Of a DNA stretch of 63,185 nucleotides, positions 1 through 63,185 are shown one piece after another. A program made the translations under genes and the position numbers. Below the pieces are notes generated by a model. The model was not told where the DNA came from. It saw only the letters and a program-made list of their open reading frames with translations, and made no database searches. Numbering within the stretch: position 1 is the stretch's first letter; every line of letters begins with the position of its first letter. This stretch comes from a virus. The stretch covers positions 1 through 63,185 of IMG/VR virus record IMGVR_UViG_3300013126_000002. One strand, written 5' to 3'.

Positions 1-123
1 CTTCTCCGCCTCACTCTTGGTGTCGGCAGCGTTGGTCAGCACGTCAGCAATCGACTGTGCGAAGTTAATGCGGTCTTGCGCGGACTTGAACACAATATCC
101 TGCCCTGCGGACGTTACCAGATC
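1..123. repeat. Terminal direct repeat (left copy), assembly junction
   Basis: The first 123 bases are identical to the last 123 (63063-63185). The minus-strand reading frame of the giant virion gene stays in frame when the two copies are merged. The contig therefore closes on itself at about 63,062 bp. The repeat lies in the middle of a gene, so it is more likely an assembly overlap of a circularly permuted genome than a true packaged terminal repeat. Confidence 0.95.
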
Positions 124-3100
124 GCGCAGGTGGGTAATGTACTCGCGCACGGCCATATTCCGGTTGGCATTTGCCATCTGGTTATAGTGCGCCATAAGCT
201 GGCTGTTGCCCTTGGCTTCCCGGTACGCATCCTTAAGCTGCTTGAACCACTCTACTTCGTGCGGACGCGGTGTGCCGTTGGCCTTGTGGTTGGCAATATC
301 AGCCACCTTTTCGCGCAGCTTCGTAACGGATTCTTCCCACTTGGCGATGGAGTCCTTCAGCGCATTGATGCGTTCCGCCTTGGCGGTCTTCATCTCCAGC
401 TTGGCTTCCTCGATCTTATCTTCCAGTTCCTGAATCTTGTCGCCCGCATTTTCACGTAGCGCATCCTGAGCCTGCATATCACGCAGTTCTTCCAGCGTGT
501 TGACGCGATCCAGCTTGCCCAGCGGTACGCGCAGCAGGGTAGAGTAGGCCATAAGAGCGCTCAGAATGGGGCGCTGTTTCGGGTGGACTTCCAGATGGCT
601 CATCAGGTTGGCGATGTGCTGGTTGGTACGTTCTACCAGTCGAGTAGCCTCAGCCGTTTGCCGCTGGCTGAACTTAACGTATTCGCCGATTTCTGGCATC
701 AGCCGCTTGTACCAAGACGCCAAGTGGTTCAAAGACCCCCAAGCGATCATCTCCTTTACCGTGCCGCCATTAACGTCACGGGTGGAGGTCAGGGAGTCTA
801 ACCATTTCCGAACTGACCCCCATAGGCTGCTCATGGCGGTAGACAATGCGGGAATCTGCTGCACGGTGCCAGCAGTATTGGCAGTCATGTAGCTAACGCC
901 TGTCCGGCCTTGATCAGCCTTATCGATGCCCTTGGCAAGCACTTGCGGGATACTGACGATCTCGGCCAGCACGGACACACGATCTGCGGTAATGGGGATA
1001 CGGAGGATAGCGGCAATCGTCTCGATCAGCGACCGCCATGCCGACTTCTTGGCAATGGGGGCTTCGATATTAGCCAGCGCATTCTGGAACGCGGCGTTGG
1101 ACATGGCCTCAGCGATAAACTCACGCACGTCCTTACCGGCATAGGCGGCAGGGAATGCTGCTGCCAGTTGGCTCTTGGTAAGGTCTTTGAGCCGTTGCAG
1201 GCGTGCAAGTGCGCTCTGCTGGCTATCTGTCAGCAGATGAGGGTTGCGAATGGCGTAGTCCAGCGCTGCATGGGTAATTTCATGTGCGATGGCGTGCATA
1301 CTGCCAGAACTGCCTTCGCTGATGTAGATCGTATTCTCTGCGCCAACGTACGCCCCCAGCGCTGCCGTATTCTTCGGGAAGCGCTTAAGCATCTCCTCCT
1401 TCGTCAGCATCACCAGCTTAACGTCAGGATTGATCAGGCTTGCTACGCGTGCGATCTCGCGCACGATAGGGTTGGTGCGGGTAGCAACACCGGTCAGCAG
1501 ATCGTAGACGGCCTTCATATCACCTGCGGCAATGGCGTCCTTAAGGTCAGCAATATCCTGCTTATCCGCAAGCGTCTTACGCATGGGCTCATAGCCCTTG
1601 GGCGACTTGTCTACTTCGATCTCATCATCTTCGGCTTCACCTGCCTGATCTTCCATGCTTTGCTCAGCGGCCTTACGAGTCTTTCCGGACGGCAGAGCGC
1701 GGCCTTCCGTCACCATAAAGGCGCGGGCCTTCTCGTTCCATATCCGGACAGACTCGCTATCAGTCAGGTCTACCTCCCCGATGGCGTCTACGATCTTGCG
1801 TACGGGGACTCCCGACTTGGCTACCTGCTTCAGCAGCCTCTCATGCGCTGACAGCAGCGATTGGGTAGGCGGAGTCTTCGGCTTGGTTTCTACCTGCACG
1901 GGAGCGGGCTCGGCCTGCGCGGACGCAGCTTCGGCCTTGGCCTGCTTAGCCTCCTTGGCTACCTGTGCTTTGGTCTTCGGCTTGGTTTCTTTAGCTACTT
2001 GCTCTTTGGTTTTGGCGGGCGCAACATTCCCAGCTTCTTGGGCAGGGGCTTGTTCTTGGGCGTTTCCGCTTGCCACTCCTTCGCCAGTTCCGGCTTGTTG
2101 GCGTACATCCACTTGCGCTGCTGCTGGCTTTTGAACGGCATTCTTCTTCCCCTTTACAGGTTTGGCGGCAGGGGCAGGCTCTGCGGCAGCCTGCGCCCGC
2201 TCTTGAACTACCATTTCGTAATCCCGCATGTCTGTGGCAAAGTCAGTCTTGCCACGACGTAGCGCATCCATAAACTGCGGAGCGTTGAGTTCTACGAACG
2301 CAGCGGGGCCTTCCGGGTGCGCGATAGCTGCTTCCCGGTTAGCTGCATACCACTGCTTAGCCGTTTTGACCTGCTCTGCCTTATTAGCGGCAGGCCGTCC
2401 ACCCAACGGAATAACAGGAGCGGTGCGGACAGGGCGCGACTCAGGGATAATGATCTGCCCCGTCGGCTGTTGTAGCGGCGGAAGTTCCGTCGATCTCTGG
2501 GCCACCTGTACGAAGCCGGGGCCCTGCTCAAACACGGGTACAGTGGCCGGAATAGCTGCTGGAAACTCTACTTGCGGTGCGTTGAAGTCCAACCGCCGTT
2601 GCATCGGAGAAACAGGCTGAGCAGGGGCTTCTACGGCAGTCTCTGCCGCAGGGGCTGCTACTTCCCCGCTGGGGGCAAGCGCAAAATTGGGGCGCTCAGG
2701 GGTAAGGGAATACCCGGCATCCGTCGGGGCCAGCGCCATACCGCTCGGAGGCTGTACTGTAGCGGCAGCCTCTTGGGCCGCTTGCAGTTGCGCTGTCAGA
2801 TACTGATTGTACGCGCTCAGGGCAACCTTCATGGCTTGCGGGCTGGGCGTTTCCGACAGTAAATCGGCCTGCACGTCCTCTGGCAATGTCCGCAGGAAGT
2901 CGCCCATACCTATGGCATCAGGTATCGCGTCTCCCATCTGCTGCTTCATAGCTACATACTCGTAGGACAGGTCGCTACGAGTTTTTTCCAGCTCCGCCAG
3001 CTCAGCCCTATCAATAGCTGCCGCATCTGCTTTTTCCACGGCAGCGGTCTGGTCAGGAGTAAGGGTGCGATCAGGCAACGCCCGAATCGGATTGGGTAGC

Positions 3101-4194
3101 CCCAGCGGCATACCTGCTGCTTCAGGGGCTTCAGGGGCTTCCGGAGCTTCCGGAGGTGCGGGCGGGGTGATCCCCGGAGTACGCGGAGCGGGCGGAGATA
3201 CAAGCCCTGCAAATCCGCCACCCACACCACCAAGCAGGCCACCAGCCAGCGCACCTTCAAGTGCCGCATCAATAGCACCATCCAGCACCTTGGTAGCCGG
3301 ATCAATGTACATAGCCCGCGAGGGATTGGTAAGAATCTGCTCAGCGCCAGACTGTACGAATTCTTGGCCGGACTCACGAATCATGCCCTTGAAGGCTTCG
3401 GTGAGCATCTTGGCTCCCGCCACACGGGGGCCAAACAGTGCAGGCAGTACGCCAGCCCCAGCAACAGCAGAGCCGAACAATGTACCTGCGGCAGATAGCG
3501 TAGACGCCTGCTCTGCGCGGGCTTCGTACAACCTACGAGCTTTTACGGGGTCGCCCTGCGCGTCAGCCAAGGCCTTCTGATACCCCTCGGTATCCTGAAT
3601 CTGCTCAGTGCTAAGCGCCTGAAGCTGGTGGCCTACATCGGCAGGCGTCTGTACAGCGGTGACCGCTGCTTCCCCTACCCCGTAAGTAGCCAGATCGCGC
3701 AGGCGCTCTGCGGTCTTCGCCCCTACACCAGTGGCTGTAGCGATACCTTCGGCTGTAGGGGCTACCTTGGCGAGCGTGTTACCCAGCATACCTGCCGGGA
3801 TCATGGACGGTGCGGACTCGGCAGCGCCGTATGCAGCCTTGCGAAGTAGGTTACCTTCGTCCCATGCCTCACCGACAGTCTGGCCGCGAACCTGCTGCGC
3901 TTTCGGGGACAGGTACTTTTCCGTGGTGTCCGCGCCACGATACATGGCTTCGCGGAAGGAACCACCCAGATCACTCAGAAACTGGTTGCCAGTGACATCC
4001 CCAACCATCTTGGTCGGTGTGCCAAGCCCTGCGCCCATGAGCTTCCATGCGCCCATGAACCCCAGACGAGGATAATCCCCGATGCTAGACTCTAATTCCG
4101 TAGAAACGGGGGCCGTAGCCCCCATAGACATAATTTCTTCGTCGGATTTGCCTGCTGCAATCGCCGCTAGAATCTGCTCATCGGTTAGTGCCAT
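1..4194 (-). CDS. Giant internal virion protein, N-terminal 1,398 residues (continues at 63062)
   Basis: The ATG at 4194 opens a minus-strand frame that runs off base 1 without a stop and continues in frame at 63062-60408, giving one protein of 2,282 residues. This half has a signal-less N-terminus, Ala/Gly-rich segments near residues 280-340 (possibly membrane-active), a long Pro/Ala/Gln-rich low-complexity region (about 350-850), then an HEITH zinc-metallopeptidase motif (His971, Glu972, His975) followed by charged coiled-coil-like sequence (about 1220-1330). Giant polyvalent proteins of this kind in podoviruses are ejected with the DNA and may cut or cross the envelope; that role is inferred. 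It lies downstream of two other internal-virion-like genes in the late unit. The family is recognised only by architecture. Confidence 0.85.
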   Translation of the reverse strand, partial: MALTDEQILAAIAAGKSDEEIMSMGATAPVSTELESSIGDYPRLGFMGAWKLMGAGLGTPTKMVGDVTGNQFLSDLGGSFREAMYRGADTTEKYLSPKAQQVRGQTVGEAWDEGNLLRKAAYGAAESAPSMIPAGMLGNTLAKVAPTAEGIATATGVGAKTAERLRDLATYGVGEAAVTAVQTPADVGHQLQALSTEQIQDTEGYQKALADAQGDPVKARRLYEARAEQASTLSAAGTLFGSAVAGAGVLPALFGPRVAGAKMLTEAFKGMIRESGQEFVQSGAEQILTNPSRAMYIDPATKVLDGAIDAALEGALAGGLLGGVGGGFAGLVSPPAPRTPGITPPAPPEAPEAPEAPEAAGMPLGLPNPIRALPDRTLTPDQTAAVEKADAAAIDRAELAELEKTRSDLSYEYVAMKQQMGDAIPDAIGMGDFLRTLPEDVQADLLSETPSPQAMKVALSAYNQYLTAQLQAAQEAAATVQPPSGMALAPTDAGYSLTPERPNFALAPSGEVAAPAAETAVEAPAQPVSPMQRRLDFNAPQVEFPAAIPATVPVFEQGPGFVQVAQRSTELPPLQQPTGQIIIPESRPVRTAPVIPLGGRPAANKAEQVKTAKQWYAANREAAIAHPEGPAAFVELNAPQFMDALRRGKTDFATDMRDYEMVVQERAQAAAEPAPAAKPVKGKKNAVQKPAAAQVDVRQQAGTGEGVASGNAQEQAPAQEAGNVAPAKTKEQVAKETKPKTKAQVAKEAKQAKAEAASAQAEPAPVQVETKPKTPPTQSLLSAHERLLKQVAKSGVPVRKIVDAIGEVDLTDSESVRIWNEKARAFMVTEGRALPSGKTRKAAEQSMEDQAGEAEDDEIEVDKSPKGYEPMRKTLADKQDIADLKDAIAAGDMKAVYDLLTGVATRTNPIVREIARVASLINPDVKLVMLTKEEMLKRFPKNTAALGAYVGAENTIYISEGSSGSMHAIAHEITHAALDYAIRNPHLLTDSQQSALARLQRLKDLTKSQLAAAFPAAYAGKDVREFIAEAMSNAAFQNALANIEAPIAKKSAWRSLIETIAAILRIPITADRVSVLAEIVSIPQVLAKGIDKADQGRTGVSYMTANTAGTVQQIPALSTAMSSLWGSVRKWLDSLTSTRDVNGGTVKEMIAWGSLNHLASWYKRLMPEIGEYVKFSQRQTAEATRLVERTNQHIANLMSHLEVHPKQRPILSALMAYSTLLRVPLGKLDRVNTLEELRDMQAQDALRENAGDKIQELEDKIEEAKLEMKTAKAERINALKDSIAKWEESVTKLREKVADIANHKANGTPRPHEVEWFKQLKDAYREAKGNSQLMAHYNQMANANRNMAVREYITHLRDLVTSAGQDIVFKSAQDRINFAQSIADVLTNAADTKSEAEK

Positions 4195-4206
4195 CTGGTG
4201 CCCTTA

Positions 4207-22030: not shown

Positions 22031-22059
22031 TTGACAAACTAAGTGGGTTGTGAGATACT
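22031..22059 (+). promoter_or_regulatory. Sigma70-type early promoter
   Basis: TTGACA (22031-22036), 17-bp spacer, GATACT (22054-22059). It shares the ACTTGACAAA context with the other early promoters and drives the first rightward genes. No GTTAAC palindrome follows this one. Confidence 0.7.
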
Positions 22060-22110: not shown

Positions 22111-22350
22111 ATGGCAACAATGATTGCAAAGCCCGCCGCTGCTAAAGCGGTACCGGCTGCCCGCCCGTCGAATTCGGCGACAATGCGGGCAGACCTTATC
22201 CACGCAGCGTATGAGCTGTGCGCCGCTCATGTGCGCGAGGTGGCCGTCAACGGCAGCTCGTTTGAGCTGGTATGCGCGGCAGAGGATGCAGCGCGATTCG
22301 TTCGCAGCGTAGAAACCGCCATGCAGCGGTTTGAACGTAACCAAGACTAA
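22111..22350 (+). CDS. Small early protein, unknown
   Basis: 79 residues from the ATG at 22111, which has AAAGGAG 7 nt upstream; an upstream GTG lacks a site. Ala/Lys/Pro-rich start, then a helical Ala/Glu/Arg-rich body with two Cys. First gene after the early promoter, a common place for host-takeover proteins. Not recognised. Confidence 0.7.
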   Translation: MATMIAKPAAAKAVPAARPSNSATMRADLIHAAYELCAAHVREVAVNGSSFELVCAAEDAARFVRSVETAMQRFERNQD

Positions 22351-22646: not shown

Positions 22647-22652
22647 GAACTT

Positions 22653-22678
22653 GGGGGCTTCGGCCCCCATTTCTTTTT
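22653..22678 (+). terminator. Rho-independent terminator
   Basis: GGGGGC stem, TTCG loop, GCCCCC, then a T-rich ATTTCTTTTT tract, 7 nt after the stop of the 86-residue gene. It isolates the first early transcript. Confidence 0.8.
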
Positions 22679-22692
22679 GCCCCTGTATTTTA

Positions 22693-22710
22693 GCGACATA
22701 GTAGTAGCCA
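22693..22710. repeat. Repeat 'GCGACATAGTAG' copy 1
   Basis: An 18-bp sequence beginning GCGACATAGTAG that recurs at 23690 and 24664, each time between a terminator and whatever follows. In this module it precedes the early promoter at 22749. It marks the boundaries of the duplicated early modules. Confidence 0.75.
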
Positions 22711-22748
22711 CCACCTTGCACCACATACCACTCAGCCACTAATATCAC

Positions 22749-22777
22749 TTGACAAACTTGTATCAGAAGTGCATAAT
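22749..22777 (+). promoter_or_regulatory. Sigma70-type early promoter, module 1
   Basis: TTGACA, 17-bp spacer, CATAAT. It shares the CACTTGACAAA start and a GTATCAGA element in the spacer with the promoter at 23745, showing the two promoters are duplicates. Confidence 0.85.
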
Positions 22778-22802
22778 ACACACATGATCTCGATTTGGGG
22801 TC

Positions 22803-22824
22803 ATCTGCCTGTTAACGGGCAGTC
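22803..22824. promoter_or_regulatory. GTTAAC palindrome, site 1
   Basis: Core GTTAAC at 22811-22816. The right arm is a perfect GGGCAGTC; the left arm (ATCTGCCT) matches consensus at five of eight positions. It lies about 25 bp downstream of a -10 box and ends 24 nt before an ATG. Confidence 0.8.
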
Positions 22825-22848
22825 AATTAACGCTAAAAGGAGCCTATC

Positions 22849-23565
22849 ATGGCACGTAATAACCGCGCGGCAGCCGCCGCATCCGCCGCTGCTCAGGCAG
22901 CATCCGTTCAACCCAGCATCGAAGACCTGATTGTTGCCGAGTGGCAGCATCTGTTCGAAGCAAAGAAAGATACCGCCAAGTACGCTGAAGAATTGAAGCG
23001 TGCCGCTGGCGGTGCTGGCAAGGCAGCGCTGCAAATCATGTTCATCATCCGCGAGGATGTGGTGATGATCGAAGTGAAAGAGACGCGCCGCCCAACGCTG
23101 AAATCTACCGCCAGCGCCGAGAAGGCAATCGCGCTGGGGCTGAAACTGGCGAACGAAGCCGGACTTTCGGATAAGACCATTGAAGACGTGCAAGCGCTGA
23201 TCCGCCGCTTTGCACGCATGGATGTGGCGAAGCGTACCGCCGTACTTAGCAAGGCAGCAGGTATGGGCATCAACGCTATGCGTAAGGTCTTTACCGCCGT
23301 GGAAACCGGCAATGCTGGCGGCGAAGAAGGCGGCAGCGGCGAAGGCAGCGGCGAAGGCAAAACCGCACCAGCAGCGAAAGACCTGAAAGAGCCGGAATTG
23401 GCGGAACTTCTCGCCAGCGTAACCGGCATGGGTGATCGCGTCACATGGCTGCAAGTGATCGCACTGGTGCAGGAAATCGGCGTGCAGACCAGCGCCGAAC
23501 TTCTGCAAAAAGAAGTAACCGCAATCGACAAGCAGCAGGCGGCGAAGCAAAAGAAAGCCGCTTAG
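22849..23565 (+). CDS. Early module protein A, paralogue of the next gene
   Basis: 238 residues. Helical, starts Ala/Asn-rich, and aligns throughout with the 216-residue product of the next module; shared segments include EDVQALIRRFARM and a Lys/Thr-Thr-Ala-Ser-Ala-Glu stretch. Residues 150-180 hold a Gly/Ser/Glu linker that differs between the two. No enzymatic motif, signal peptide or membrane segment. A strong promoter, a near-consensus SD (AAAGGAG) and a terminator of its own suggest an abundant early protein. It might bind DNA or host factors; function unknown. Confidence 0.8.
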   Translation: MARNNRAAAAASAAAQAASVQPSIEDLIVAEWQHLFEAKKDTAKYAEELKRAAGGAGKAALQIMFIIREDVVMIEVKETRRPTLKSTASAEKAIALGLKLANEAGLSDKTIEDVQALIRRFARMDVAKRTAVLSKAAGMGINAMRKVFTAVETGNAGGEEGGSGEGSGEGKTAPAAKDLKEPELAELLASVTGMGDRVTWLQVIALVQEIGVQTSAELLQKEVTAIDKQQAAKQKKAA

Positions 23566-23588
23566 TTCTACCTGATTCAATCCTTCCA

Positions 23589-23614
23589 GCCCCGCGAAAG
23601 CGGGGCTTTTTTTT
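23589..23614 (+). terminator. Rho-independent terminator after module 1
   Basis: Perfect 7-bp stem GCCCCGC / GCGGGGC with a GAAA tetraloop followed by eight T's, 23 nt after the stop codon. Confidence 0.95.
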
Positions 23615-23627
23615 GCCTTGAATTTGG

Positions 23628-23649
23628 GACTGGTCGTTAACGGGCAGTC
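23628..23649. promoter_or_regulatory. GTTAAC palindrome, site 2
   Basis: Left arm GACTGGTC, core GTTAAC (23636-23641), right arm GGGCAGTC. It lies between the module 1 terminator and the next promoter, so it is the only site in this module not close to a start codon. Confidence 0.85.
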
Positions 23650-23689
23650 CCGTTTTTTCTTTTTTGCCTGTACTTTCCTCCTGACTGGA

Positions 23690-23715
23690 GCGACATAGTA
23701 GTAGCCATGCCCCAA
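23690..23715. repeat. Repeat 'GCGACATAGTAG' copy 2
   Basis: 26 bp here; the first 18 match copy 1 and the whole matches copy 3 (24664-24689) with one change. It precedes the module 2 promoter by 30 bp. Confidence 0.8.
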
Positions 23716-23744
23716 TCCATCATCATGCACGCGTGAAATATCAC

Positions 23745-23773
23745 TTGACAAAATAGTATCAGACGAGCATAAT
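23745..23773 (+). promoter_or_regulatory. Sigma70-type early promoter, module 2
   Basis: TTGACA, 17 bp, CATAAT, with the same CACTTGACAAA and GTATCAGA elements as the module 1 promoter. Confidence 0.85.
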
Positions 23774-23780
23774 AACAATT

Positions 23781-23801
23781 CCCCTGCATTTTTCGCAGGG
23801 G
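23781..23801 (+). promoter_or_regulatory. 5'-end stem-loop in module 2 leader
   Basis: CCCCTGC and GCAGGGG pair around a 7-base loop, starting within a few bases of the expected transcription start. There is no T tract, so it probably protects the 5' end of the mRNA rather than terminating. Confidence 0.6.
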
Positions 23802-23807
23802 AAGCCT

Positions 23808-23829
23808 GACTGGCCGTTAACGGCCAGTC
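23808..23829. promoter_or_regulatory. GTTAAC palindrome, site 3 (perfect)
   Basis: The only fully symmetric copy: GACTGGCC, core GTTAAC, GGCCAGTC. It lies 35 bp after the -10 box and ends 28 nt before the module 2 ATG. Confidence 0.9.
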
Positions 23830-23857
23830 GATCAACTATCTAACTAGGAGCAATATC

Positions 23858-24508
23858 ATGGCTAAATCCAAGCCCGCAGTACCCGCAGTTGACACCCTCG
23901 ACACTCTTGCCCGTAGCGAATGGCAAGTGCTGTTTTCCGCAAAGGCCGCGACCCGCACGCACGCCGAGCAACTAAAGGCCGCAGCAGGAAGTGCTGGTGC
24001 TGCTACGTTGCACCTCATGTCCCTGATCAAGGATGACCTGACCCTGATCGAGATCAAAGAGGAACGCAGGCCTGCTATCAAGACGACCGCCAGCGCCGAA
24101 CGCGTGATCGCTATCGGGATCGAGATGGCTCGCGCAGGTGGAATGGCCGACAAAACAGTCGAGGACGTGCAAGCCCTCATCCGCAGGTTCGCACGCATGA
24201 CCGCAGAAAAGCGGGCTGCTGTGCTGACGCAAGGGATCGATAAAGGCCTGAATGCCCTGCGAAAGGTGTTCCTTGCCCTTGAGAACGGCGCAAAGGGGTC
24301 GGATGAGGGTGAGGGTTCAACCGCCCCAGAAAAACAGCTCACAGAGCCCGACATCGCCGAGCTGCTGACAAGCATAACGAAGCACGGCACGCGCGAGACG
24401 TGGTTGTCCCTGATCGCAGTCGCAGTTGACTATGGGGTCGAGGCCGCAGCCAAGTTGGTCGAGGCTGACCTGAACAAGCCAGCCAAGCGCACCCGCAAAG
24501 CAGCCTAA
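23858..24508 (+). CDS. Early module protein B, paralogue of the previous gene
   Basis: 216 residues, clearly homologous to the 238-residue protein upstream over nearly its full length (same Glu-Trp-Gln-x-Leu-Phe motif near residue 20, same EDVQALIRRFARM near 100, same Leu-Arg-Lys-Val-Phe). It lacks the long Gly/Ser linker and ends Lys/Arg-rich (Lys-Arg-Thr-Arg-Lys). The pair arose by duplication of the whole promoter-palindrome-gene-terminator unit and has diverged well beyond recent copying. Unknown function. Confidence 0.8.
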   Translation: MAKSKPAVPAVDTLDTLARSEWQVLFSAKAATRTHAEQLKAAAGSAGAATLHLMSLIKDDLTLIEIKEERRPAIKTTASAERVIAIGIEMARAGGMADKTVEDVQALIRRFARMTAEKRAAVLTQGIDKGLNALRKVFLALENGAKGSDEGEGSTAPEKQLTEPDIAELLTSITKHGTRETWLSLIAVAVDYGVEAAAKLVEADLNKPAKRTRKAA

Positions 24509-24529
24509 TCCCCTGCTGTTACCCTTAAA

Positions 24530-24555
24530 GCCCTGCTTTTGCAGGGCTTTTTTTT
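24530..24555 (+). terminator. Rho-independent terminator after module 2
   Basis: GCCCTGC stem, TTTT loop, GCAGGGC, then eight T's. Confidence 0.95.
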
Positions 24556-24622
24556 GTCCATTGTTCTCACCTGATAACATCTGCCCTGATATTCCCCAGC
24601 AAGATCAGACACTTAATGCTTT

Positions 24623-24644
24623 GACTGCCCGTTAACGGGCTGTC
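24623..24644. promoter_or_regulatory. GTTAAC palindrome, site 4
   Basis: GACTGCCC, core, GGGCTGTC: one change from perfect symmetry. Located in the non-coding stretch after the module 2 terminator, far from any clear gene. Confidence 0.85.
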
Positions 24645-24663
24645 GTAGTCACGCTCGACTGGC

Positions 24664-24689
24664 GCGACATAGTAGTCGCCATGCCCCAA
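24664..24689. repeat. Repeat 'GCGACATAGTAG' copy 3
   Basis: Third copy, followed not by a recognisable promoter but by the AT-rich region. This looks like the decayed remnant of a third early module. Confidence 0.8.
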
Positions 24690-24750
24690 AAACACGTAGC
24701 ACTAACAGATGACGAGAACAATGAAGGAGAAAAAGTGTAATGAAATCAAT

Positions 24751-24772
24751 GACTGGCCGTTAACGGCTAGTG
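24751..24772. promoter_or_regulatory. GTTAAC palindrome, site 5
   Basis: GACTGGCC, core, GGCTAGTG. Directly preceded by a Shine-Dalgarno-like GAAGGAG and a seven-codon mini-ORF (ATGAAATCAATG start) whose TAA stop lies inside the palindrome core. Confidence 0.8.
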
Positions 24773-24847
24773 CAAAGTGATACGAATATCTACTTACACG
24801 CGAAAAAGCAAATGAGACGGGTATGAAAGTGAAAGTCTAAAAACGTA

Positions 24848-25015
24848 ATGAAATCAACGGAAACAGGTGCTCACAAAATAGGCATTGCGAGACGTGTAAG
24901 GGGTATGCACCCACTAGAGCCTGAAGTCCAAAATGTTATGGGTCTCCTACCTAAGTACCTGTTTTCTATATCTTTATTTATTATATTTATTATATGTATT
25001 GCATTTCTTGTCTAA
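24848..25015 (+). CDS. Possible small tail-anchored membrane protein
   Basis: 55 codons from the ATG at 24848. The N-terminal 35 residues are polar and basic; the last 18 are almost purely hydrophobic (Leu/Ile/Phe). No good ribosome site is visible. Hydrophobic codons are easily produced by AT-rich DNA, so this may be chance. If real, it would be a single-pass C-terminally anchored peptide. Confidence 0.25.
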   Translation: MKSTETGAHKIGIARRVRGMHPLEPEVQNVMGLLPKYLFSISLFIIFIICIAFLV

Positions 25016-25342
25016 AAACGGGAAATTACATACGCCACACGCGCGACCCCAACTTAAAGTAAAGTCTTAAGTTCTCATTTGAGACCTATAAGTCACCAAA
25101 AAACGCGTATCCTTATTTTTTTCGCCGAAATCTGCATTCTCACCATCCGGTAGTATATCCCCTTATTTTTCTCAATGAAATCAACGATCTTGCCAGCACC
25201 CAACAGGTTAGTACTTACACACCCGTCTCAAACTTCGCATACAATCTCAGATTCCCTTATATAAATCAAGCACTTAGGGGTCAGACCCACTTTCATCCGA
25301 TACTAATTATGTTGTTGATTTGTATAGACTTTCTCATTTGGT

Positions 25343-33259: not shown

Positions 33260-33424
33260 ATGTTCCGTAATTACGACAACATGGACGACTGGTGGGATGC
33301 GGTCGGAAAGGAGAAGTGGCGTGAACTGGAACGCGAGAAGGCAGCCGAGCGTGCAGCAGACGCTGCAAGAGCAGCACAGGAAGAACGTGACCGAGCTAAT
33401 CCTGAACATGATAAAGGAGTTTAA
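33260..33424 (+). CDS. Small charged helical protein
   Basis: 54 residues with GAGGAG upstream. Two adjacent Trp (11-12), then a highly charged Glu/Arg/Ala helix. Stop and next start share a base (TAATG). Unknown. Confidence 0.6.
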   Translation: MFRNYDNMDDWWDAVGKEKWRELEREKAAERAADAARAAQEERDRANPEHDKGV

Positions 33425-33636
33425 TGATGGACAAGAAGTATTCGGGCAAGGTAGTCAACCTGCCCATCGAGACGCACCAGCGGTTGGAAGCATATCGTGC
33501 AAAACTGTCGGCGCATTTAGGGTTTACACCCTCGTTGTCGGAGACTATCGCGTTCGCGCTTAAGGCGCGTGAACGTGACGAGCAGGCTAAAGACTGCCCG
33601 TTAACGACCAGTGAAGGTGCGACTGATGACCGTTAA
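33424..33636 (+). CDS. Ribbon-helix-helix-like protein, candidate DNA binder
   Basis: 70 residues. A strand with alternating residues (Gly-Lys-Val-Val-Asn-Leu-Pro), then two helices separated by a Gly-Phe-Thr-Pro-Ser-Leu-Ser turn match the CopG/Arc ribbon-helix-helix plan. Such dimers bind palindromic operators. Palindrome site 12 overlaps its last codons. Assignment is by pattern only. Confidence 0.55.
   Translation: MMDKKYSGKVVNLPIETHQRLEAYRAKLSAHLGFTPSLSETIAFALKARERDEQAKDCPLTTSEGATDDR
33592..33613. promoter_or_regulatory. GTTAAC palindrome, site 12
   Basis: GACTGCCC, core, GACCAGTG, inside the 3' end of the RHH-like gene and 12 nt before the ATG at 33626. Confidence 0.85.
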
Positions 33637-33943
33637 GGACGTTATCCTGCAAGCGTTGCAGGCCAAGGATCAGACCACTTCCGAGCTGGAGGCCTTGGGG
33701 TTTCACCGCGACACTGTGCAGCGCCGTACCAAGGAGTTGGTGGAGGAAGGGCTGGTGTTCAGGTGTGGCAGGGGCAGCAAGACCTACTACACGACCAAGG
33801 GCAAGGGCGTATTTCCCACCAAGAAAGAACGCCCCCTCACCCTGCCCGACCTCCCGCCACTTATGTTGTGGTGGGGCGGGTACAACGACAAATCCCCTGA
33901 TCCTGATCAGGGGCGATACATCAACGGAGGGCAATGGTCATGA
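33626..33943 (+). CDS. Winged helix-turn-helix protein
   Basis: 105 residues from the ATG at 33626. Residues 5-60 (Leu-Gln-Ala-Lys, Thr-Thr-Ser-Glu-Leu-Glu-Ala-Leu-Gly, Val-Gln-Arg-Arg-Thr-Lys-Glu-Leu-Val-Glu-Glu-Gly-Leu-Val) read as a typical wHTH with wing. The C-terminus is Pro/Leu-rich. Likely a transcription or DNA-replication factor; target unknown. Confidence 0.7.
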   Translation: MTVKDVILQALQAKDQTTSELEALGFHRDTVQRRTKELVEEGLVFRCGRGSKTYYTTKGKGVFPTKKERPLTLPDLPPLMLWWGGYNDKSPDPDQGRYINGGQWS

Positions 33944-37803: not shown

Positions 37804-37989
37804 ATGGAGAAACTGGCAACAATCATCCCGCAGGATAGATGGTGGCGCAGAGGGGAGTGCGTAGTGCGTATTCTCAGTCGCGGCCATTACCCTGACACCG
37901 CATGGGTACGTCTGCCCAACGATGTAGAAACCGAGGTCTACATCAGCGATCTTGAGAACCCGCCTCCTCTACCCGTTAACGGACAGTGA
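37804..37989 (+). CDS. Small hypothetical protein
   Basis: 61 residues from the ATG at 37804 with TAGGAG upstream. Strand-rich with Trp-Trp-Arg-Arg and Arg-Gly-His-Tyr-Pro turns, SH3-like in feel. Palindrome site 13 covers its last seven codons, and its stop is just outside the core. Confidence 0.65.
   Translation: MEKLATIIPQDRWWRRGECVVRILSRGHYPDTAWVRLPNDVETEVYISDLENPPPLPVNGQ
37967..37988. promoter_or_regulatory. GTTAAC palindrome, site 13
   Basis: CTCTACCC, core, GGACAGTG: the weakest left arm. It ends 3 nt before the ATG at 37992, so it occupies the ribosome-binding region of the next gene. It is the last copy before the replication block. Confidence 0.7.
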
Positions 37990-44541: not shown

Positions 44542-44928
44542 ATGAGTAAAACTGTTGCCCGTCGAGGCCGTCCCCTGTCTCTCTATGATGAGACTACCCA
44601 ACGCATCAATAACGCTGTTGCCCGCGATCCTGCCCAGCTTGGCCCCCGCCTTGGCCTGTGCGCTCGTCAGTGCGGACTGTCCGCCCGCGAAGTGGCTGGC
44701 CTTTTAGATGCTTCCCTTCCAACCGTATACCGCTGGTTCTTTGGCGAAAGCGAGCCGTCCCGTGCCTATCGTGGTCGTGCGCTGCGGATGCTGAAGATCA
44801 TGGAGTGGGCCGTCAAGACCGGTCGTATCCCGATTCTCGGATATTCGCCGGAAGAAACTGTTTTAAATTATCGAGCCGTTTCAACCGATTACGCAAAAGC
44901 CAAAGATGCCCCTGTTGATGTAGGTTGA
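44542..44928 (+). CDS. Helix-turn-helix DNA-binding protein
   Basis: 128 residues. Gly-Leu-Ser-Ala-Arg-Glu-Val-Ala-Gly-Leu-Leu-Asp-Ala-Ser-Leu-Pro-Thr-Val-Tyr-Arg (about 47-66) is a good Cro/C1-type HTH. Could regulate the promoter 1.5 kb upstream or act on the late region. Confidence 0.75.
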   Translation: MSKTVARRGRPLSLYDETTQRINNAVARDPAQLGPRLGLCARQCGLSAREVAGLLDASLPTVYRWFFGESEPSRAYRGRALRMLKIMEWAVKTGRIPILGYSPEETVLNYRAVSTDYAKAKDAPVDVG

Positions 44929-44978: not shown

Positions 44979-47894
44979 GTGGAAACGCTTGAATTTTTGC
45001 GGCGTGTCTGGCCGCAGGAGGGATATTATTGCATAGCTGTCCCACGAACCGGACTCATCAAGGGTGAGCAACGCTCTTGGTTTGACCACCATGTCTATGC
45101 AACTATCGAAGCCGCAGCGGCCAAGGCCTTGGAGTTGGATGCCCAAGGGGATGACGTGTACTACGCACTGTCGTCACTCAGTCAGCCAGAGTATTACGAG
45201 GAGACCAAGGCAGGCCGTAAGCGCAGGGTGCGTACAAAGCAGAACCTGCACCTGCTGGGCACTTTGTTCTTGGAAGTCGATGTCGGGGAAGGGAAGGACT
45301 ACGCAACTGCTGAGGAAGCGCTCGATGCAGTAAAGCAGTTCGCCTACCAGATCGGCTGGCCGCTTCCAGAAGTCGTGTCCAGCGGGTACGGCCTCCATCT
45401 GTATTGGCGACTTGATCAGCCAATCGCCGCACGTATGCAAGACACCATCGCCGATCTGCTGAAGGTAGCCGCTGATACGGTAGGATTCCATCTGGATCGT
45501 CAGGCTTTGGACTGTGCGCGGGTGTTTCGGGTGGTCGGTACGCACAATTATAAGCGTGGCGGCAAAAAACCGGTGGAAATGGTACGCCCATCTAGGACAC
45601 ACTCTCCAAAAGCCCTGTATACGGCCCTCAAATCGTTTTGCGGGGAGCATGTAGCTAACACCCTTAGCCGCGCTGCGATCTCCAGTCCTAGCGCGACTGT
45701 GCAAGCCGGTTTTGAGGACAACCTCAAAAAATCACACGCCCCGTTGAATTTCGATGGTTTGCTCCGGTGTAAGCAGATTCGGGAGACTGTCGAGGAGAAT
45801 GGCAACGTAGAATACGGTCAATGGTGGCACACGATTCAGGTTATCCGACTGTGTGACAACGGGCGGGAACGCGCTCATGAGATTTCGCAGCATGGGGAAA
45901 AATACAGCGCCGCCGATCTGGACAAGTACCTTGATAATTTTGAGGTCAACGACATCGGCCCTACCCTGTGTTCCACGTTTGCGGCAAAGAGCCCCGGCAA
46001 ATGTGACGGCTGCCCATTCCGAGGTGACATCACATCTCCGGCGAAGCTGGGCAGGGTAGCGGTAGAAGCTGCCCCTCCCGTAGTCAAGTTCAACGGCAAG
46101 GAACATGTGATCCCCGTAGCGGCAGAACACATTGAGATTCCCAACCCGCCGTTCCCGTATGTACGTCGTGAAGGTGGTGGCATTGTCATCAGATCGTCCA
46201 GACAGGATGGCGATGGTGAGGTGGTGCAGGAGGAGGAAGTAATCTTCGACTACGACATCTTTCCGGTCAAGCGTATGCACCATACAGGTCAGCAGGTAGA
46301 GACGACCCTGTGGCATATCGAGATTCCAACGGACGGCAAGAAGGAAGTGGAGATCGCGGCTGCCGATCTATACGACAAGCGGGCGTTTTCCAAGGCCATT
46401 ACGGCTAAGGGGGTTTATCCATCTACGGGTGGTATTGAGGCATTGAGGTCATTTATGGTTGCTTACATCAGGTTGCTGCAACAGCGTGCCAAGGCGGAGC
46501 GGAAGTACCACACCCTTGGCTGGCAGGAGGACGGCTCGTTCGTGCTGGGGGATCGCGTGTACGCCAAGGACAGCATCCAGCACTGCGACATAGTAGACAC
46601 ACCCCCCATCGACCAGATCAAGACCAAGGGGCGGATCGAGGCATGGTGCGACGTGCTTGACCTGTACAACCACGATGCGTTTGTGGCACACCAGTTTGCG
46701 TTCTTTGCTGGGGCGGGGTCTATATTCACCCCCCTGTCGAACTACGAAGGTGCGTCCATTTGGTTGCACGGGCACTCCGGCGCATCCAAGACTTCTATCC
46801 AGTACCTGATCAATTCTGTGTATGGTACGCCCAAGGGCATGATCCTGAGCGGTGATCCGGCCATGTCCACCTACAACGCCAAGATCACCCATATCGCCAC
46901 TTTGAAGAACCTGCCTACCACGCTGGACGAGGCTACCCGTATGTCACGGGAGGAACTGGAGACGTTCAGCTATACCTTCACCCAAGGGCAGAACAAGGCT
47001 CGTCTGAACCCTGACGGCACGATGAAGCAAGACCCGCGCAAATGGAAGGCCATCTGCGTACTGTCGGCGAACGAGGGCGCTTACGACAAGCTGGCTAGTA
47101 GCCAAGGCAATAGTAACGCCAAGGCGCTACGTATCATGGAGCTGTACGTTCCCGTGACCCACGTTTATACCAAGCATGACTTCGATGAACGGTATCAGGC
47201 GCTGTGGGAAAACTACGGACTGGCAGGCCACCTGATCGTGAACTGGGCGGTCAACCACTACGAAGAATTGCAAGCCATGACGCAGGCGTTCAAGGTGCAG
47301 TTTGAGCGTGACGCCGCCATATCGGCAGAGGAGCGGTATTGGTCGCTGCTGGCAGTAGCAGCCATGACAGCCTTCACCATCATGAAACAGCTTGGCCTGC
47401 ATGGTATGCGTATGGAGCCGATGTACGACTACATCGTATCGCGTGCCGGAGTTAACCGTAGTACGGTGCAGACCAACCAGTTTACGGCGAAGGATATGCT
47501 GTCCGAATACATCAACGCGCACACCACGCAGATGCTGGTCACACAGGAGCCGCTGGAGGGCTTCGCAGGCCAAGGGCCGATTGTCAGCGTCATGCCTCGC
47601 GGCGAGTTGCAGATGCGGATGGACATGACTACCCAACGGCTTTATATGGCGAAGGCTCCGTTCCGCGACTGGTGTACAAAACGTGGCATGTCGGCTACCA
47701 ACGCCATCACGGAACTGTTCACTGCGGGGGTCATCACAGACCGCAACACCCGCCGTGCGCTGGGACAGGGTACGCAGTTCGCTACTGGTGCTGTGGCTTG
47801 CGTGGAAGTAGACATGACGAAGCTGGTGGAAGGTGCGGTGTCCATCACCAAACTGGTGGAGGAGGCCAAGCATGACAGTCTTCCGGCGCATTAA
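44979..47894 (+). CDS. Primase-helicase (AEP primase plus P-loop helicase)
   Basis: 971 residues from a GTG start with AAGGGGG upstream. The archaeo-eukaryotic-primase part (about 1-210) shows Leu-Phe-Leu-Glu-Val-Asp-Val, Ser-Ser-Gly-Tyr-Gly-Leu-His-Leu-Tyr-Trp and Cys-Ala-Arg-Val-Phe-Arg-Val-Val-Gly-Thr-His-Asn. A Cys/zinc region follows (about 325-345: Cys-Asp-Gly-Cys). The C-terminal helicase has a DUF927-like Gly-His-Ser-Gly-Ala-Ser-Lys-Thr P-loop near 598. Primes and unwinds phage DNA for the family A polymerase. Confidence 0.85.
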   Translation: METLEFLRRVWPQEGYYCIAVPRTGLIKGEQRSWFDHHVYATIEAAAAKALELDAQGDDVYYALSSLSQPEYYEETKAGRKRRVRTKQNLHLLGTLFLEVDVGEGKDYATAEEALDAVKQFAYQIGWPLPEVVSSGYGLHLYWRLDQPIAARMQDTIADLLKVAADTVGFHLDRQALDCARVFRVVGTHNYKRGGKKPVEMVRPSRTHSPKALYTALKSFCGEHVANTLSRAAISSPSATVQAGFEDNLKKSHAPLNFDGLLRCKQIRETVEENGNVEYGQWWHTIQVIRLCDNGRERAHEISQHGEKYSAADLDKYLDNFEVNDIGPTLCSTFAAKSPGKCDGCPFRGDITSPAKLGRVAVEAAPPVVKFNGKEHVIPVAAEHIEIPNPPFPYVRREGGGIVIRSSRQDGDGEVVQEEEVIFDYDIFPVKRMHHTGQQVETTLWHIEIPTDGKKEVEIAAADLYDKRAFSKAITAKGVYPSTGGIEALRSFMVAYIRLLQQRAKAERKYHTLGWQEDGSFVLGDRVYAKDSIQHCDIVDTPPIDQIKTKGRIEAWCDVLDLYNHDAFVAHQFAFFAGAGSIFTPLSNYEGASIWLHGHSGASKTSIQYLINSVYGTPKGMILSGDPAMSTYNAKITHIATLKNLPTTLDEATRMSREELETFSYTFTQGQNKARLNPDGTMKQDPRKWKAICVLSANEGAYDKLASSQGNSNAKALRIMELYVPVTHVYTKHDFDERYQALWENYGLAGHLIVNWAVNHYEELQAMTQAFKVQFERDAAISAEERYWSLLAVAAMTAFTIMKQLGLHGMRMEPMYDYIVSRAGVNRSTVQTNQFTAKDMLSEYINAHTTQMLVTQEPLEGFAGQGPIVSVMPRGELQMRMDMTTQRLYMAKAPFRDWCTKRGMSATNAITELFTAGVITDRNTRRALGQGTQFATGAVACVEVDMTKLVEGAVSITKLVEEAKHDSLPAH

Positions 47895-60407: not shown

Positions 60408-63185
60408 TCAAAAGTTAAGGTTTTCATAGGCATAGGCGGCGTCACGGCGGCTCATACCCAACATGCCGGTATCCGTAGTCAGCCCGATCTGGCGTTCCAA
60501 TGCGCGGCGGCGAAGCCCCTCTGCAATACCGGTAATCGGGTGTTCCGCGTGCTTGGCATTGTACTCCTCCATACGCTTCTGCCAGTACTGACGATTCTCG
60601 TCATTCTTGCTCTCGATTGCGTAATACAGGTTGTCACGAATGCGCTCGCGCTTCATGTTGATGACGGCTTCGCGGGTACGCATGTACCGCCCCTTTTCTT
60701 CCGCCGTGGCCTTCTCGGACGGCTTGAAGCCCATCGCAGTCAGGGCGACCATGTAGGGGGAGGTCTCTACCGGAATCTTGTTTCCGGCAGCGTTGATGTA
60801 CCCCTCGTTATACACCATGCGCGTAGCGCGGAACATGTCCCGCACAAATGTCGGCATACCTTCAATGCCGCCATCGATAGTGGTGAGCGGCGTCGGGGCC
60901 CCGATCAATGTATTCTTTGTCACGCTGGCTCCGGCCATAGCCATCTGATAGAGCCCGATAACCATGTTGAACGCGGGAGATGCCTGCGACCAGCCAGCAG
61001 AGTCTTTCAGCTTGTCCTCAAATGTCCGCTGATCCGCGAAGAACCGGCTGCCGGGAATAATGTCTGCCTGCCCTGCACGGGTGGATAGATCGACGCCCAG
61101 CGCATTGGGAATACCCTTGGTCAGCAGTTCGCCGCCCTTATCGCCCAGCATTGCTGCGGCGTACTGGCGCATGGCAAGACGTACATCCCAAGGATCATCG
61201 TCCTTATCTCCGGCGATAGCAGCGACCATGTTGATCGCAGCGGCAATAGCCGTAATGAACGGCAGCCCCAAGGCCCCGGCGTAAACCATCGTCATACCAA
61301 GTAGCCCGACCAGTGCGGTCTTGGCCTCAGCGGCCATAAGTTTGGCCTCTGCAACGGCCTTCTTGGCCTTTTCGATCTCGTTAACCGTAGCCGTATAGCG
61401 CGTATTCTCGCGCAGCCGGGCCTCAGCGTCCTTCAGTTCTGCCGTAAGCTGAATACGCACGGCCTTGCGATCCTTGCCTGTAGCCTCCTTGATCTTCTGC
61501 TCCAGATCGGCAATCAGCTTCTCGGTAGCGGCCTTGTCCAGCGACTTGATCTCGGAAGGGAACGCTGCTTCGCGGGCCTCGGCATCAGCCAGTTCGGCCT
61601 GTGCCTGTCGGAGTTGATACCCGACAGCCTCGGAGATAGTACGGATGTGCAGCTCCAGCAACTGCGCGTTGAACTGCTGAAACGTAGCGACCAAGGGGGT
61701 GACCTTGCCGAGGAACCCATGCTTGCCCAACGCGCGGGCCACGTTAATGGCCGTGTAGCTGAACTGCGTATCACGAACTGCCTTCAGCGCGAAATCTGCT
61801 GCGGCTTCCGCAGTGGGCAGGGCACGGGCGTGTTTGGATCGTGCCAGTCGATAAGCAGCCAACCCGACAACCAGCCGGTTAGCTACTTCGGCGTAGTGGT
61901 TGGTCAGGCCAGCAGTCTTGGACAGCCGCGAGGTAGTATCGCTCTGTTCGGCTTCCAGTCGGGTAATTTCACGGGTGATACCGAAGTTCACTTCCCCGGA
62001 GTCCAGTGCCTGCTGGATAAACGCCCGTTCATCAGCGGTCAGGTTGGTGAAGTGTTCGTCCGCAATCAGCGTAGCGTTCAGGAACTTGTCCAGATACGCC
62101 TTGCCCCCTTCAGCAGATGCGGCCTGTTGCTTGGTGGCCTCAAACAGCGCTGCCAAGCCGGTCTTAACATCGCCGTAAGCCTTGTACATCTCAGCCGTAG
62201 CCATACGATACCCGAACCGCCCGCCAAGGATAGGCAGCGAGATTTGGGTCGGTTGCAGCAGGTTAAGTATCAGGTATGCAGGGCTCAGAGCCAGATAGGT
62301 GGTGTACGCCCCAGACCGCAGCAGATCGATCAGCGGGGTTTCAATCGGGTCCATCGCATTGGCATGGCGCAGCCGCAGCTCATCGTACACGCGCTTCGCG
62401 TCTACGGCACTGGCCGAGTGGTTGGCCTCCATCGTACGAACAGACTGGTTCATGCTGTTGAACGACTCGTTGATCAGCGGCAGGTACAAGTGGTTGGCGA
62501 AGTACCGGTGCGAATTCACTGCACGATCTGCATAGCTACGGATCATCTCATCCAGCTTGAAGCCGGGAACAGCCTCGCGGCGGGTTAGCGCCTTACGGAC
62601 AGACCCTTCAGGGAGCATAGCCAACCAGCTATTACGGGCAGCAGCCTTCATCGAGTTCTTCTGCTTGTCCGTGACATTCAGCCGGTCGATCTCACCCAGC
62701 ATACGGTTCAGGAATTCCGGCGTAACGGCATTAGCCTGCACGGAGGACTCGTCGCTAAGTTGCCCCCACCCATAGGCCTTCAGTTCACCACTGGCTACTT
62801 CCTTCTCCAGCTCAGCGCCACGGGCCTGCATCTCGCGCTGTGTTGCAAACCGCTCAAACCAGCGTACGCCATCATTGTCTTCGTAGGATACGAAATAATC
62901 GCCGAAGCGGCCTACGTGGAAGTACGGGGAGCGCTCAGCCATCCGCACGATCTTCTGCATCACGCGCATTTCCTTGACCACTTCCATACGGCGGGCCGGG
63001 TTCTCCATCTTGGCTACGACTTCAGCAGCCTTGTCTTCCACCAGCTTACGGGCAGCATCCATCTTCTCCGCCTCACTCTTGGTGTCGGCAGCGTTGGTCA
63101 GCACGTCAGCAATCGACTGTGCGAAGTTAATGCGGTCTTGCGCGGACTTGAACACAATATCCTGCCCTGCGGACGTTACCAGATC
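60408..63185 (-). CDS. Giant internal virion protein, C-terminal half (continues from base 1)
   Basis: The frame enters from base 1 (62 residues upstream in sequence) and stops at 60408; the apparent GTG start at 63155 is internal. This part corresponds to about residues 1,368-2,282. It contains a Pro-Ile-Leu-Gly-Gly-Arg-Phe-Gly motif near residue 1,676 (PLxRFG-like), a long Ala/Glu/Lys coiled coil (about 1,900-1,990), one or two Ala/Gly/Leu-rich hydrophobic stretches (near 2,000-2,040) that could insert in membranes, and an Arg/Lys-rich end. Ejection-type function inferred. Confidence 0.85.
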   Translation of the reverse strand, partial: DLVTSAGQDIVFKSAQDRINFAQSIADVLTNAADTKSEAEKMDAARKLVEDKAAEVVAKMENPARRMEVVKEMRVMQKIVRMAERSPYFHVGRFGDYFVSYEDNDGVRWFERFATQREMQARGAELEKEVASGELKAYGWGQLSDESSVQANAVTPEFLNRMLGEIDRLNVTDKQKNSMKAAARNSWLAMLPEGSVRKALTRREAVPGFKLDEMIRSYADRAVNSHRYFANHLYLPLINESFNSMNQSVRTMEANHSASAVDAKRVYDELRLRHANAMDPIETPLIDLLRSGAYTTYLALSPAYLILNLLQPTQISLPILGGRFGYRMATAEMYKAYGDVKTGLAALFEATKQQAASAEGGKAYLDKFLNATLIADEHFTNLTADERAFIQQALDSGEVNFGITREITRLEAEQSDTTSRLSKTAGLTNHYAEVANRLVVGLAAYRLARSKHARALPTAEAAADFALKAVRDTQFSYTAINVARALGKHGFLGKVTPLVATFQQFNAQLLELHIRTISEAVGYQLRQAQAELADAEAREAAFPSEIKSLDKAATEKLIADLEQKIKEATGKDRKAVRIQLTAELKDAEARLRENTRYTATVNEIEKAKKAVAEAKLMAAEAKTALVGLLGMTMVYAGALGLPFITAIAAAINMVAAIAGDKDDDPWDVRLAMRQYAAAMLGDKGGELLTKGIPNALGVDLSTRAGQADIIPGSRFFADQRTFEDKLKDSAGWSQASPAFNMVIGLYQMAMAGASVTKNTLIGAPTPLTTIDGGIEGMPTFVRDMFRATRMVYNEGYINAAGNKIPVETSPYMVALTAMGFKPSEKATAEEKGRYMRTREAVINMKRERIRDNLYYAIESKNDENRQYWQKRMEEYNAKHAEHPITGIAEGLRRRALERQIGLTTDTGMLGMSRRDAAYAYENLNF
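63063..63185. repeat. Terminal direct repeat (right copy), assembly junction
   Basis: Exact copy of bases 1-123. Merging the two keeps the giant gene in frame. Confidence 0.95.

Follow-up and report, generated by a model that had tools for sequence, protein, structure and literature searches.

A viral DNA stretch of 63,185 nucleotides (IMG/VR virus record IMGVR_UViG_3300013126_000002, positions 1 to 63,185; hereafter the window, meaning the whole stretch analyzed) carries two tandem transcription modules at 22.69–23.61 and 23.68–24.55 kb, together with a dispersed palindrome, CTGSYCGTTAACGRSCAG, present in 13 copies that all lie within 22.8–38.0 kb, or 24% of the map. Sequence analysis leads us to propose, with a probability of roughly 60%, that the modules are tandem first-early units and that a dimeric regulator encoded by the phage uses the 13 palindromes as operators to shut down early transcription. 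The label "early" for the 22–38 kb region is plausible from gene order, as replication genes lie farther along the same strand.

The 13 copies are sharply separated from the rest of the genome. Scored with a symmetric position weight matrix, all 13 sites reached at least 27.8 bits, compared with 2.9 for the best non-site. The palindrome pattern gave 27 matches over the two strands, with two weak outliers, versus 0.6 expected. In IMG/VR, the exact strict form was found in no contig, and a looser form occurred once in each of three contigs, which we attribute to chance.

The positions of the palindromes relate to gene starts. Six of the 13 lie no more than 60 nt upstream of a start codon supported by a Shine–Dalgarno sequence (SD), with 1.5 expected within the site span (p = 0.0015) and 1.1 expected under a local control restricted to 1.5 kb around the sites (0/4000). 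The first copy, a putative operator (22803–22824), is located in the leader of gene A, 27 nt after the −10 box; the second (23628–23649) directly follows the terminator of module A; and the third, a perfect 22 bp palindrome (23808–23829), is in the leader of gene B. The fourth (24623–24644) and the fifth (24751–24772, in non-coding DNA) are followed by copies in the leader of a 179-amino-acid (aa) gene (25508–25529), 65 nt 5′ of a 1217-aa gene (26118–26139) and within the latter (27628–27649). The remaining copies lie 5′ of a 432-aa glutamine amidotransferase (GATase)-like gene (29844–29865), 5′ of a 56-aa open reading frame (ORF) at 31518 (31481–31502), within a 268-aa gene (32246–32267), over the end of a 70-aa ORF and 14 nt before the start of a winged-helix gene at 33626 (33592–33613), and, as the weakest copy, at the end of an ORF before the DNA polymerase gene (37967–37988). 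In the three promoter units that carry it, the palindrome begins 27, 36 and 58 nt past the −10 box and thus falls within the transcribed leader, where a bound protein would act as a road block.

Pairing between the palindrome arms amounted to 82.1%, compared with 80.9% in shuffled data, and 170 of 500 shuffles were as good; thus, there is no covariation. The half-sites nevertheless share one consensus, although the arms do not compensate. This combination speaks for a duplex-DNA site for a dimeric, two-fold symmetric protein. A LexA box was rejected because the spacing CTG-N12-CAG does not fit that motif. Comparison of 21.7–26.3 kb with known RNA families returned four matches up to E = 0.5, all far under the gathering score.

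Both modules contain every part listed in the original prediction, namely a repeat, a sigma-70-like promoter, a palindrome, a gene and an intrinsic terminator. Module A, on the plus strand like all units described here, comprises a promoter at 22749–22777 (TTGACA-17-CATAAT, 11/12 consensus letters), the orphan gene A (22849–23565, 238 aa) and a terminator at 23588–23607. Module B comprises a promoter at 23745–23773 with the same boxes and score, a 5′ leader hairpin at 23779–23803 (CCCCTGC/GCAGGGG; z-score −5.7 for the whole leader including the palindrome), the paralogous gene B (23858–24508, 216 aa) and a terminator at 24527–24550. Both terminators end in an 8-T run and are the first two of the 24 listed (16.2 expected). 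The 38-nt promoter blocks of A and B are 89% identical, and the 90-bp promoter stretch is 78% identical. The promoter pattern CACTTGACAAANNNGTATCR...ATAATA occurs only at 22746 and 23742 and in none of 100 shuffles; promoter-like sites as such show no excess over 21.5–40 kb (14 versus 10.8 expected, standard deviation 3.0).

Proteins A and B are 49% identical over 216 aa (E = 1e-63). They had been described as clear paralogues, and similarity on alignment, the absence of which had been named as the refuting outcome, was readily found; the evidence likewise supports a transcription unit duplicated in tandem as a whole, from promoter and leader to gene and terminator. The modules do not stand alone, however. 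A preceding unit has a promoter at 22031–22059 (TTGACA-17-GATACT, 10/12 consensus letters), genes of 79 and 86 aa and an intrinsic terminator at 22652–22669, and follows the same promoter–leader plan without a palindrome; its SD-supported 79-aa ORF (22111–22350) has no PHROG match and a Pfam match only at E = 0.14. The next unit starts from a promoter at 25423–25451 (TTGACA-17-TACAAT) and carries the 179-aa gene (25556–26095; no Pfam or NCBIfam match, best PHROG at E = 0.0047, function not assigned). The plan of promoter, leader and gene is thus found four times in series, at 22031, 22749, 23745 and 25423, and the leaders of gene B and the 179-aa gene carry a separate 5′ hairpin besides the palindrome. 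The original view of self-contained modules holds for their parts but not for their exclusiveness, since the 13-copy palindrome also reaches beyond them. Very high, separately tuned expression had also been implied; the promoters are near consensus, but the shared palindrome suggests common rather than separate control.

Relatives were identified through the major head protein, which has 132 relatives in IMG/VR (the best 80 of the 132 being 62–69% identical) and more distant ones in 165 phage records, the best of which are Rollin, StenR_269 and Y3 (37.5–42%). The sample for comparison comprised 12 relatives: the nine longest of the best 80 IMG/VR contigs and these three phages. Exact inverted repeats with arms of 5–7 and spacers of 0–12 were counted without a predefined motif against three shuffles each. 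Dispersed palindrome families exceeding the shuffles were found in nine of the 12 relatives, each with its own site and with eight different sequences in total: GTTGATANNTATCAAC in G002, GATTAACNNGTTAATC in G014, CGTCAGANNNTCTGACG in G019, GTCAGGTNACCTGAC in G003, TTTGTKACNNNGTMACAAA in G011, TTTGT-N11-ACAAA in both G021 and G024, TTGGGACA-N4-TGTCCCAA in G009, and GTTTAACGTTAAAC in StenR_269. As G021 and G024 are near-identical, the nine records represent eight lineages. No family was found in Y3, in Rollin, which has just one local cluster of four, or in G020, a 45.8-kb record that also yielded no first-early gene.

Recounting with the motifs, allowing two mismatches for the window, G011, G021, G024 and G009 and one for the others, gave 7–14 copies in each of the nine relatives, with shuffle means of 0–0.1 for the window and eight of the nine (all but G021). 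Under the local control, nearness to gene starts was significant in six of ten genomes (the window, G014, G019, G021, G024 and G009); the significance of G003 under the whole-span control was discounted because that span takes in late genes. Palindrome centres are even in the window, G002, G014, G009 and StenR_269, and odd in G003, G019, G011 and G021/G024. As the relatives keep much of the layout but each has its own signature, the data suggest a genome-wide gene switch that evolves fast.

Under the proposed mechanism, host RNA polymerase would start at the near-consensus sigma-70-like promoters, and the transcript would open with a hairpin, cover one gene and end at an intrinsic terminator. 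In the course of infection the phage would produce its own DNA-binding protein of two-fold symmetry, which would then bind the palindromes and block RNA polymerase in leaders and inside genes, turning off the early region as one regulon. Protein and sites would change together between phages, which may account for the distinct palindrome of each relative.

Several genes in the window are candidates for this regulator, all on the plus strand. The 70-aa ORF at 33424–33636 appears ribbon-helix-helix-like by eye (MatP_C only at E = 0.11), and the adjoining winged-helix protein (33626–33943) matches a PHROG transcriptional regulator at E = 8e-4 and Pfam HVO_A0261_N at 1.4e-6, under the curated cut-off. 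The 268-aa protein (31954–32760), N-terminally winged-helix-like, is a weak candidate (NCBIfam Sso10a at E = 0.0067, under cut-off; Pfam HTH_45 at E = 0.16; no PHROG up to E = 0.1). A helix-turn-helix protein at 44542–44928 matches HTH_23, HTH_31 and HTH_3, all under cut-off, and has a homologue in G002. Across 12 records (the window and 11 relatives), HTH_3 matches were found in eight and exceeded the cut-off in six; in G003, G019 and G021/G024 the HTH_3 gene follows the non-coding region. An XRE gene was rejected as a common regulator, as it is not universal.

Searches of the window for a tyrosine or serine recombinase, ParA or an S24 repressor (PF00589, PF00239, PF13614 and PF00717) gave no match at E = 0.01, and the phage is therefore probably virulent, with the site code serving lytic timing rather than immunity. 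PF00239, PF13614 (AAA_31) and PF00717 had no match in any of the 12 records. A PF00589 integrase-like domain over cut-off was observed in G014 (IMGVR_UViG_3300045806_000080, 25470–25904, minus strand), the sole case in the 12 records.

A number of observations weigh against operators of a common shut-off. The palindromes at 27630 and 32248 lie deep in genes, distant from starts and promoters. Under the local control, nearness to starts was not significant in G002 (p = 0.26), G003 (p = 0.08), G011 (p = 0.22) or StenR_269 (p = 0.09). The motifs were defined on the same genomes in which they were counted, and symmetric repeats only were sought. None of the window candidates was singled out as the palindrome-binding regulator. 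HTH_3 gave no match in the palindrome-bearing G002, G014, G009 and StenR_269 but did so in G020, for which no palindrome family was found; one HTH_3 family therefore cannot serve all palindrome families. Homology of A and B to the first early proteins of the relatives, described below, was also not found.

In relatives whose records include the early start, the typical first early unit consists of a promoter-like box, a hairpin leader (with the palindrome in several), a gene of 187–264 aa, a terminator, a palindrome, GTAGT elements and sparse DNA. It occupies the same place as modules A and B, beside the terminase end, although the parts are not complete in each relative: by the rule used, the palindrome is missing from several leaders, including those of L030, L076 and L055. 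A separate 5′ hairpin is present in the leaders of several relatives. Iterated profile search united the relatives' first early proteins into one family (alignment A2; 22 rows, one a fragment and two near-identical), with an isoelectric point (pI) above 9 in 17 of the 22 rows. Four members gave nothing better than E = 0.07 against PHROGs, and two gave nothing against Pfam. The model of one member, built from 19 rows, has six helices and a predicted local distance difference test (pLDDT) score of 87; no fold match was found for it (best E = 2.0 in PDB and 0.64 in BFVD). Tandem gene pairs also occur in L041 (G009), L030 and L062. The copies are sisters in L030 (support 100/97) and G009 (86/75), and the L062 duplication apparently predates the split from L070, in a tree with many long branches and 4 of 18 inner branches well supported.

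By position, A and B are counterparts of this first early protein. Comparison with A2 gave hhalign probabilities of 0.2% and 0.5% and hmmsearch scores below 0, and no A2 match was found in the window. Either the proteins have diverged too far for homology to be detected, or an unrelated protein has taken the place of the original one. The first early protein of G002 likewise occupies the same place and has no homology to the A2 family. The original assignment of A and B to an unknown protein family stands, as no relative was found in PHROGs, Pfam, NCBIfam, phages, IMG/VR or GTDB, nor in plasmids, which were searched with A only. None was found in 29 distinct related records either (24 + 14, 9 overlapping), a search run without a positive control. 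Divergence between A and B (nonsynonymous, dN, 0.45; synonymous, dS, 2.15, near saturation) marks them as an old pair under purifying selection. They are probably host-takeover or regulatory proteins. Structure prediction of A from a two-row alignment was unusable (pLDDT 41).

The closest alternative concerns the identity of the regulator. If A, B and the relatives' first early proteins bound the sites themselves, they would be autoregulated via their own leaders, which would suit the sites on both sides of their units and the high pI of most family rows. Residues 119–177 of A, moreover, show weak profile similarity to lambda Cro and its variants (seven rows, E = 0.04–0.9, which form one signal because they are mutually related). 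The lambda Cro value of 0.04, however, was obtained with profile A1 only, phmmer of B alone showed no Cro, and no helix-turn-helix domain in A or B rose above the curated cut-offs of Pfam or NCBIfam. Both proteins are only slightly basic (net +2 and +3), and the well-modelled family member matches no known fold; we therefore regard these proteins as doubtful binders. A wider version seems rather unlikely to hold as a whole: that virulent phages of a broad group, most of them uncultured, control early expression with a symmetric site code of their own making, about a dozen operators per genome, the code being replaced in each lineage while the layout and a conserved element, GCGRCAYAGTAGT, are kept, and that the fast-evolving first early proteins (A, B and the A2 family) are the binders, a new all-helical class of regulators co-evolving with the sites and subject to tandem duplication.

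Promoters for a phage-carried RNA polymerase were also considered, by comparison with phage N4, whose virion RNA polymerase uses hairpin promoters in which the loop has three bases and pairing of the stem is required (PMC4496689). The window shares with N4 inverted repeats 5′ of early genes and a giant virion protein, here a minus-strand, virion-side gene of 2285 codons. Many palindromes lie 14–30 nt before start codons, right before the SD, and all are confined to the early region; StenR_269 has a gene annotated as a virion-associated RNA polymerase, and the odd centres in G003, G019, G011 and G021/G024 would fit a 3-base loop. Even centres are nonetheless found in the window and four relatives, the arms in the window mismatch without compensation, and modules A and B each already have a good sigma-70-like promoter upstream of the palindrome. 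With phmmer, neither half of the giant ORF nor the StenR_269 protein matched an RNA polymerase structure. An N4-type promoter is thus unlikely.

Action in RNA, as leader hairpins for stability or processing or as binding sites of a translational repressor, would agree with the palindromes next to an SD, which can form hairpins in the leaders of gene A, gene B and the 179-aa gene. We consider it improbable: an RNA hairpin was rejected on the lack of covariation, several sites are located after terminators, within genes or in non-coding DNA, and a 5′ hairpin distinct from the palindrome is already present in the leaders of B, the 179-aa gene and several relatives. A role of the palindromes as dispersed sites for partition, replication or packaging is similarly improbable, for although multi-copy palindromes are typical of centromeres and iterons and two copies lie in an AT-rich stretch, no ParA (AAA_31) match was found in the 12 records and the palindromes are enriched directly before gene starts in six of ten genomes.

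Besides the palindrome, the modules share a repeat. The 12-mer GCGACATAGTAG occurs exactly at 22693, 23690 and 24664, with a fourth exact copy at 46585 within the primase-helicase gene; with two mismatches allowed, its total of nine does not exceed chance, as the shuffle mean is 4.8 and nine or more copies arise in 6 of 100 shuffles. The first three copies extend to 33-nt blocks that are 70–94% alike; the plus-strand element reads GCGACATAGTAGTAGCC at 22693–22709 and 23690–23706 and GCGACATAGTAGTCGCC at 24664–24680, and a related element is present in relatives. The third copy, near the start of a non-coding region, had been taken for a decayed third module. This was not confirmed: tblastn with A and B detected no trace of either in 24.5–25.55 kb (best E = 1.2), and single-module relatives have a palindrome, the repeat element and AT-rich non-coding DNA at the corresponding place. 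Because the gene trace is absent and the AT-rich DNA has counterparts in relatives, a conserved region that begins at the third repeat is more likely than a dead module.

This AT-rich stretch (24509–25555) spans the 1047 bp between gene B and the 179-aa gene, with a GC content of 0.42 versus 0.56 for the genome, and has no convincing gene, its longest complete ATG ORF being 55 aa. A similar order is seen in single-module relatives (e.g., G019, G003, G014, G011 and G024), where the last terminator is followed by a palindrome, the GTAGT element and 0.7–1.3 kb of AT-rich DNA without a convincing gene. The stretch 3′ of the last first-early gene was 9–16 points below genome GC in seven of eight genomes, the window included; G002 (256 bp) was the exception. 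Its far end was set at the first ORF judged real, inner ORFs of 60–90 aa being taken as chance.

GTAGT was found on the early strand in 17 of 21 stretches behind first-early genes (14 of 18 outside the window), with 32 copies on the early strand (6.6 expected) versus 2 on the other. In this count near-identical records were taken once and overlapping copies were included, the motif had been seen beforehand, and two of the four empty stretches were short (104 and 133 nt). L076, L064, L070 and L026 are without the element. Its flanks yield, independently of copy choice, the 13-bp one-strand element GCGRCAYAGTAGT, common to lineages that differ in palindrome; no promoter box was found at a constant distance 3′ of GTAGT. 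Together with the AT-rich DNA that follows, the element is a candidate for a separate conserved control or replication region. DnaA boxes with one mismatch are suggestive of an origin at most: the non-coding stretch holds 4 versus 0.2 expected in G003 and 3 versus 0.6 in G009, the AT-rich stretch of the window holds 4 of 65 (1.1 expected), and G019, G024, G014 and G011 have none or one. Cumulative GC skew does not support an origin at this stretch, the window minimum being at 31.4 kb. Three exact AATGAAATCAA repeats are present in the stretch, at 24739, 24847 and 25174.

The first and last 123 bases of the window are identical, and when the contig ends are joined, an uninterrupted ORF of 2285 codons spans the junction on the minus strand (60411–63185 plus 1–4203); we therefore take the window as a complete 63,062-base phage map. 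The C-terminal part of this ORF matches DarB-like and other giant phage proteins, and the StenR_269 gene annotated as a virion-associated RNA polymerase is of similar size. The minus strand up to 21.5 kb encodes the terminase, a portal-like protein and the major head protein; a scan for relatives of the 742-aa protein of the structural block found none. Between the diverging gene blocks, 5′ of the first early promoter, the direct repeat GTAGGGTTATTATGTTTTTAC occurs in two exact copies (21873 and 21921). Between 38 and 49 kb, the plus strand encodes DNA polymerase, exonuclease, helicase, primase-helicase and thymidylate synthase. Within 22–38 kb, which begins with modules A and B, the sole protein with matches in the 12 compared relatives is the 432-aa protein, a class-II GATase-like protein with relatives in Methylophilales phages and StenR_269. 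It adjoins the 1217-aa protein, whose C-terminal part is amidoligase-like by eye, with a weak PHROG match (the two at 26203–31192).

Literature searches for Rollin and StenR-269, and others on repeated palindromes or inverted repeats in early regions, the latter judged by titles and abstract openings, yielded no paper on this phage group, in sources that cover subscription journals thinly. By analogy, the nearest known arrangements are the stoperators of cluster A mycobacteriophages and the SPbeta repeated element (SPBRE). Stoperators of L5 and Bxb1 occur in many copies per genome, at promoters and along transcription units, with a consensus and a repressor specific to the subcluster (PMC6550527); these sites lack symmetry, bind a repressor monomer and for the most part share one orientation (PMC4557955, PMC6550527). 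The window likewise has many copies of one site in the early region (13 here), and nine of 12 relatives have families of their own. Unlike L5 stoperators, the window sites are two-fold symmetric, the relatives having been screened for symmetric repeats only, and, unlike in cluster A phages with an identified repressor and prophage genes, neither was detected here. SPBRE, a repeated intergenic 15-bp motif at prophage promoters, was found by sequence and later shown to be bound by the master repressor MrpR, which has a tyrosine-recombinase fold (PMC10516654). Our palindrome, too, is a repeated site in one phage found first from sequence, although the window, unlike SPbeta, has no PF00589 match. 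In the temperate phage phiC31, the palindromic operators known as conserved inverted repeats (CIR) are, like the present sites, dispersed in the early region. The phiC31 sites are served by three repressor isoforms (PMC4557955). In contrast to L5, SPbeta and phiC31, no lysogeny gene and no repressor were found here.

A gene pair alone would be an orphan duplication; what is unusual is a site code resembling that of a regulon and differing between phages. The orphan pair is now seen as an instance of something that recurs in a phage group, its first early unit, and the conserved element with its AT-rich region is marked as a possible replication origin. In temperate phages, dispersed operators whose code differs between lineages are known to determine immunity. 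If the proposed shut-off is real, early transcription in lytic growth can also be ended by a genome-wide site code, and the families found here, at least eight, would offer a natural series from which to read the recognition code once the regulators are known.

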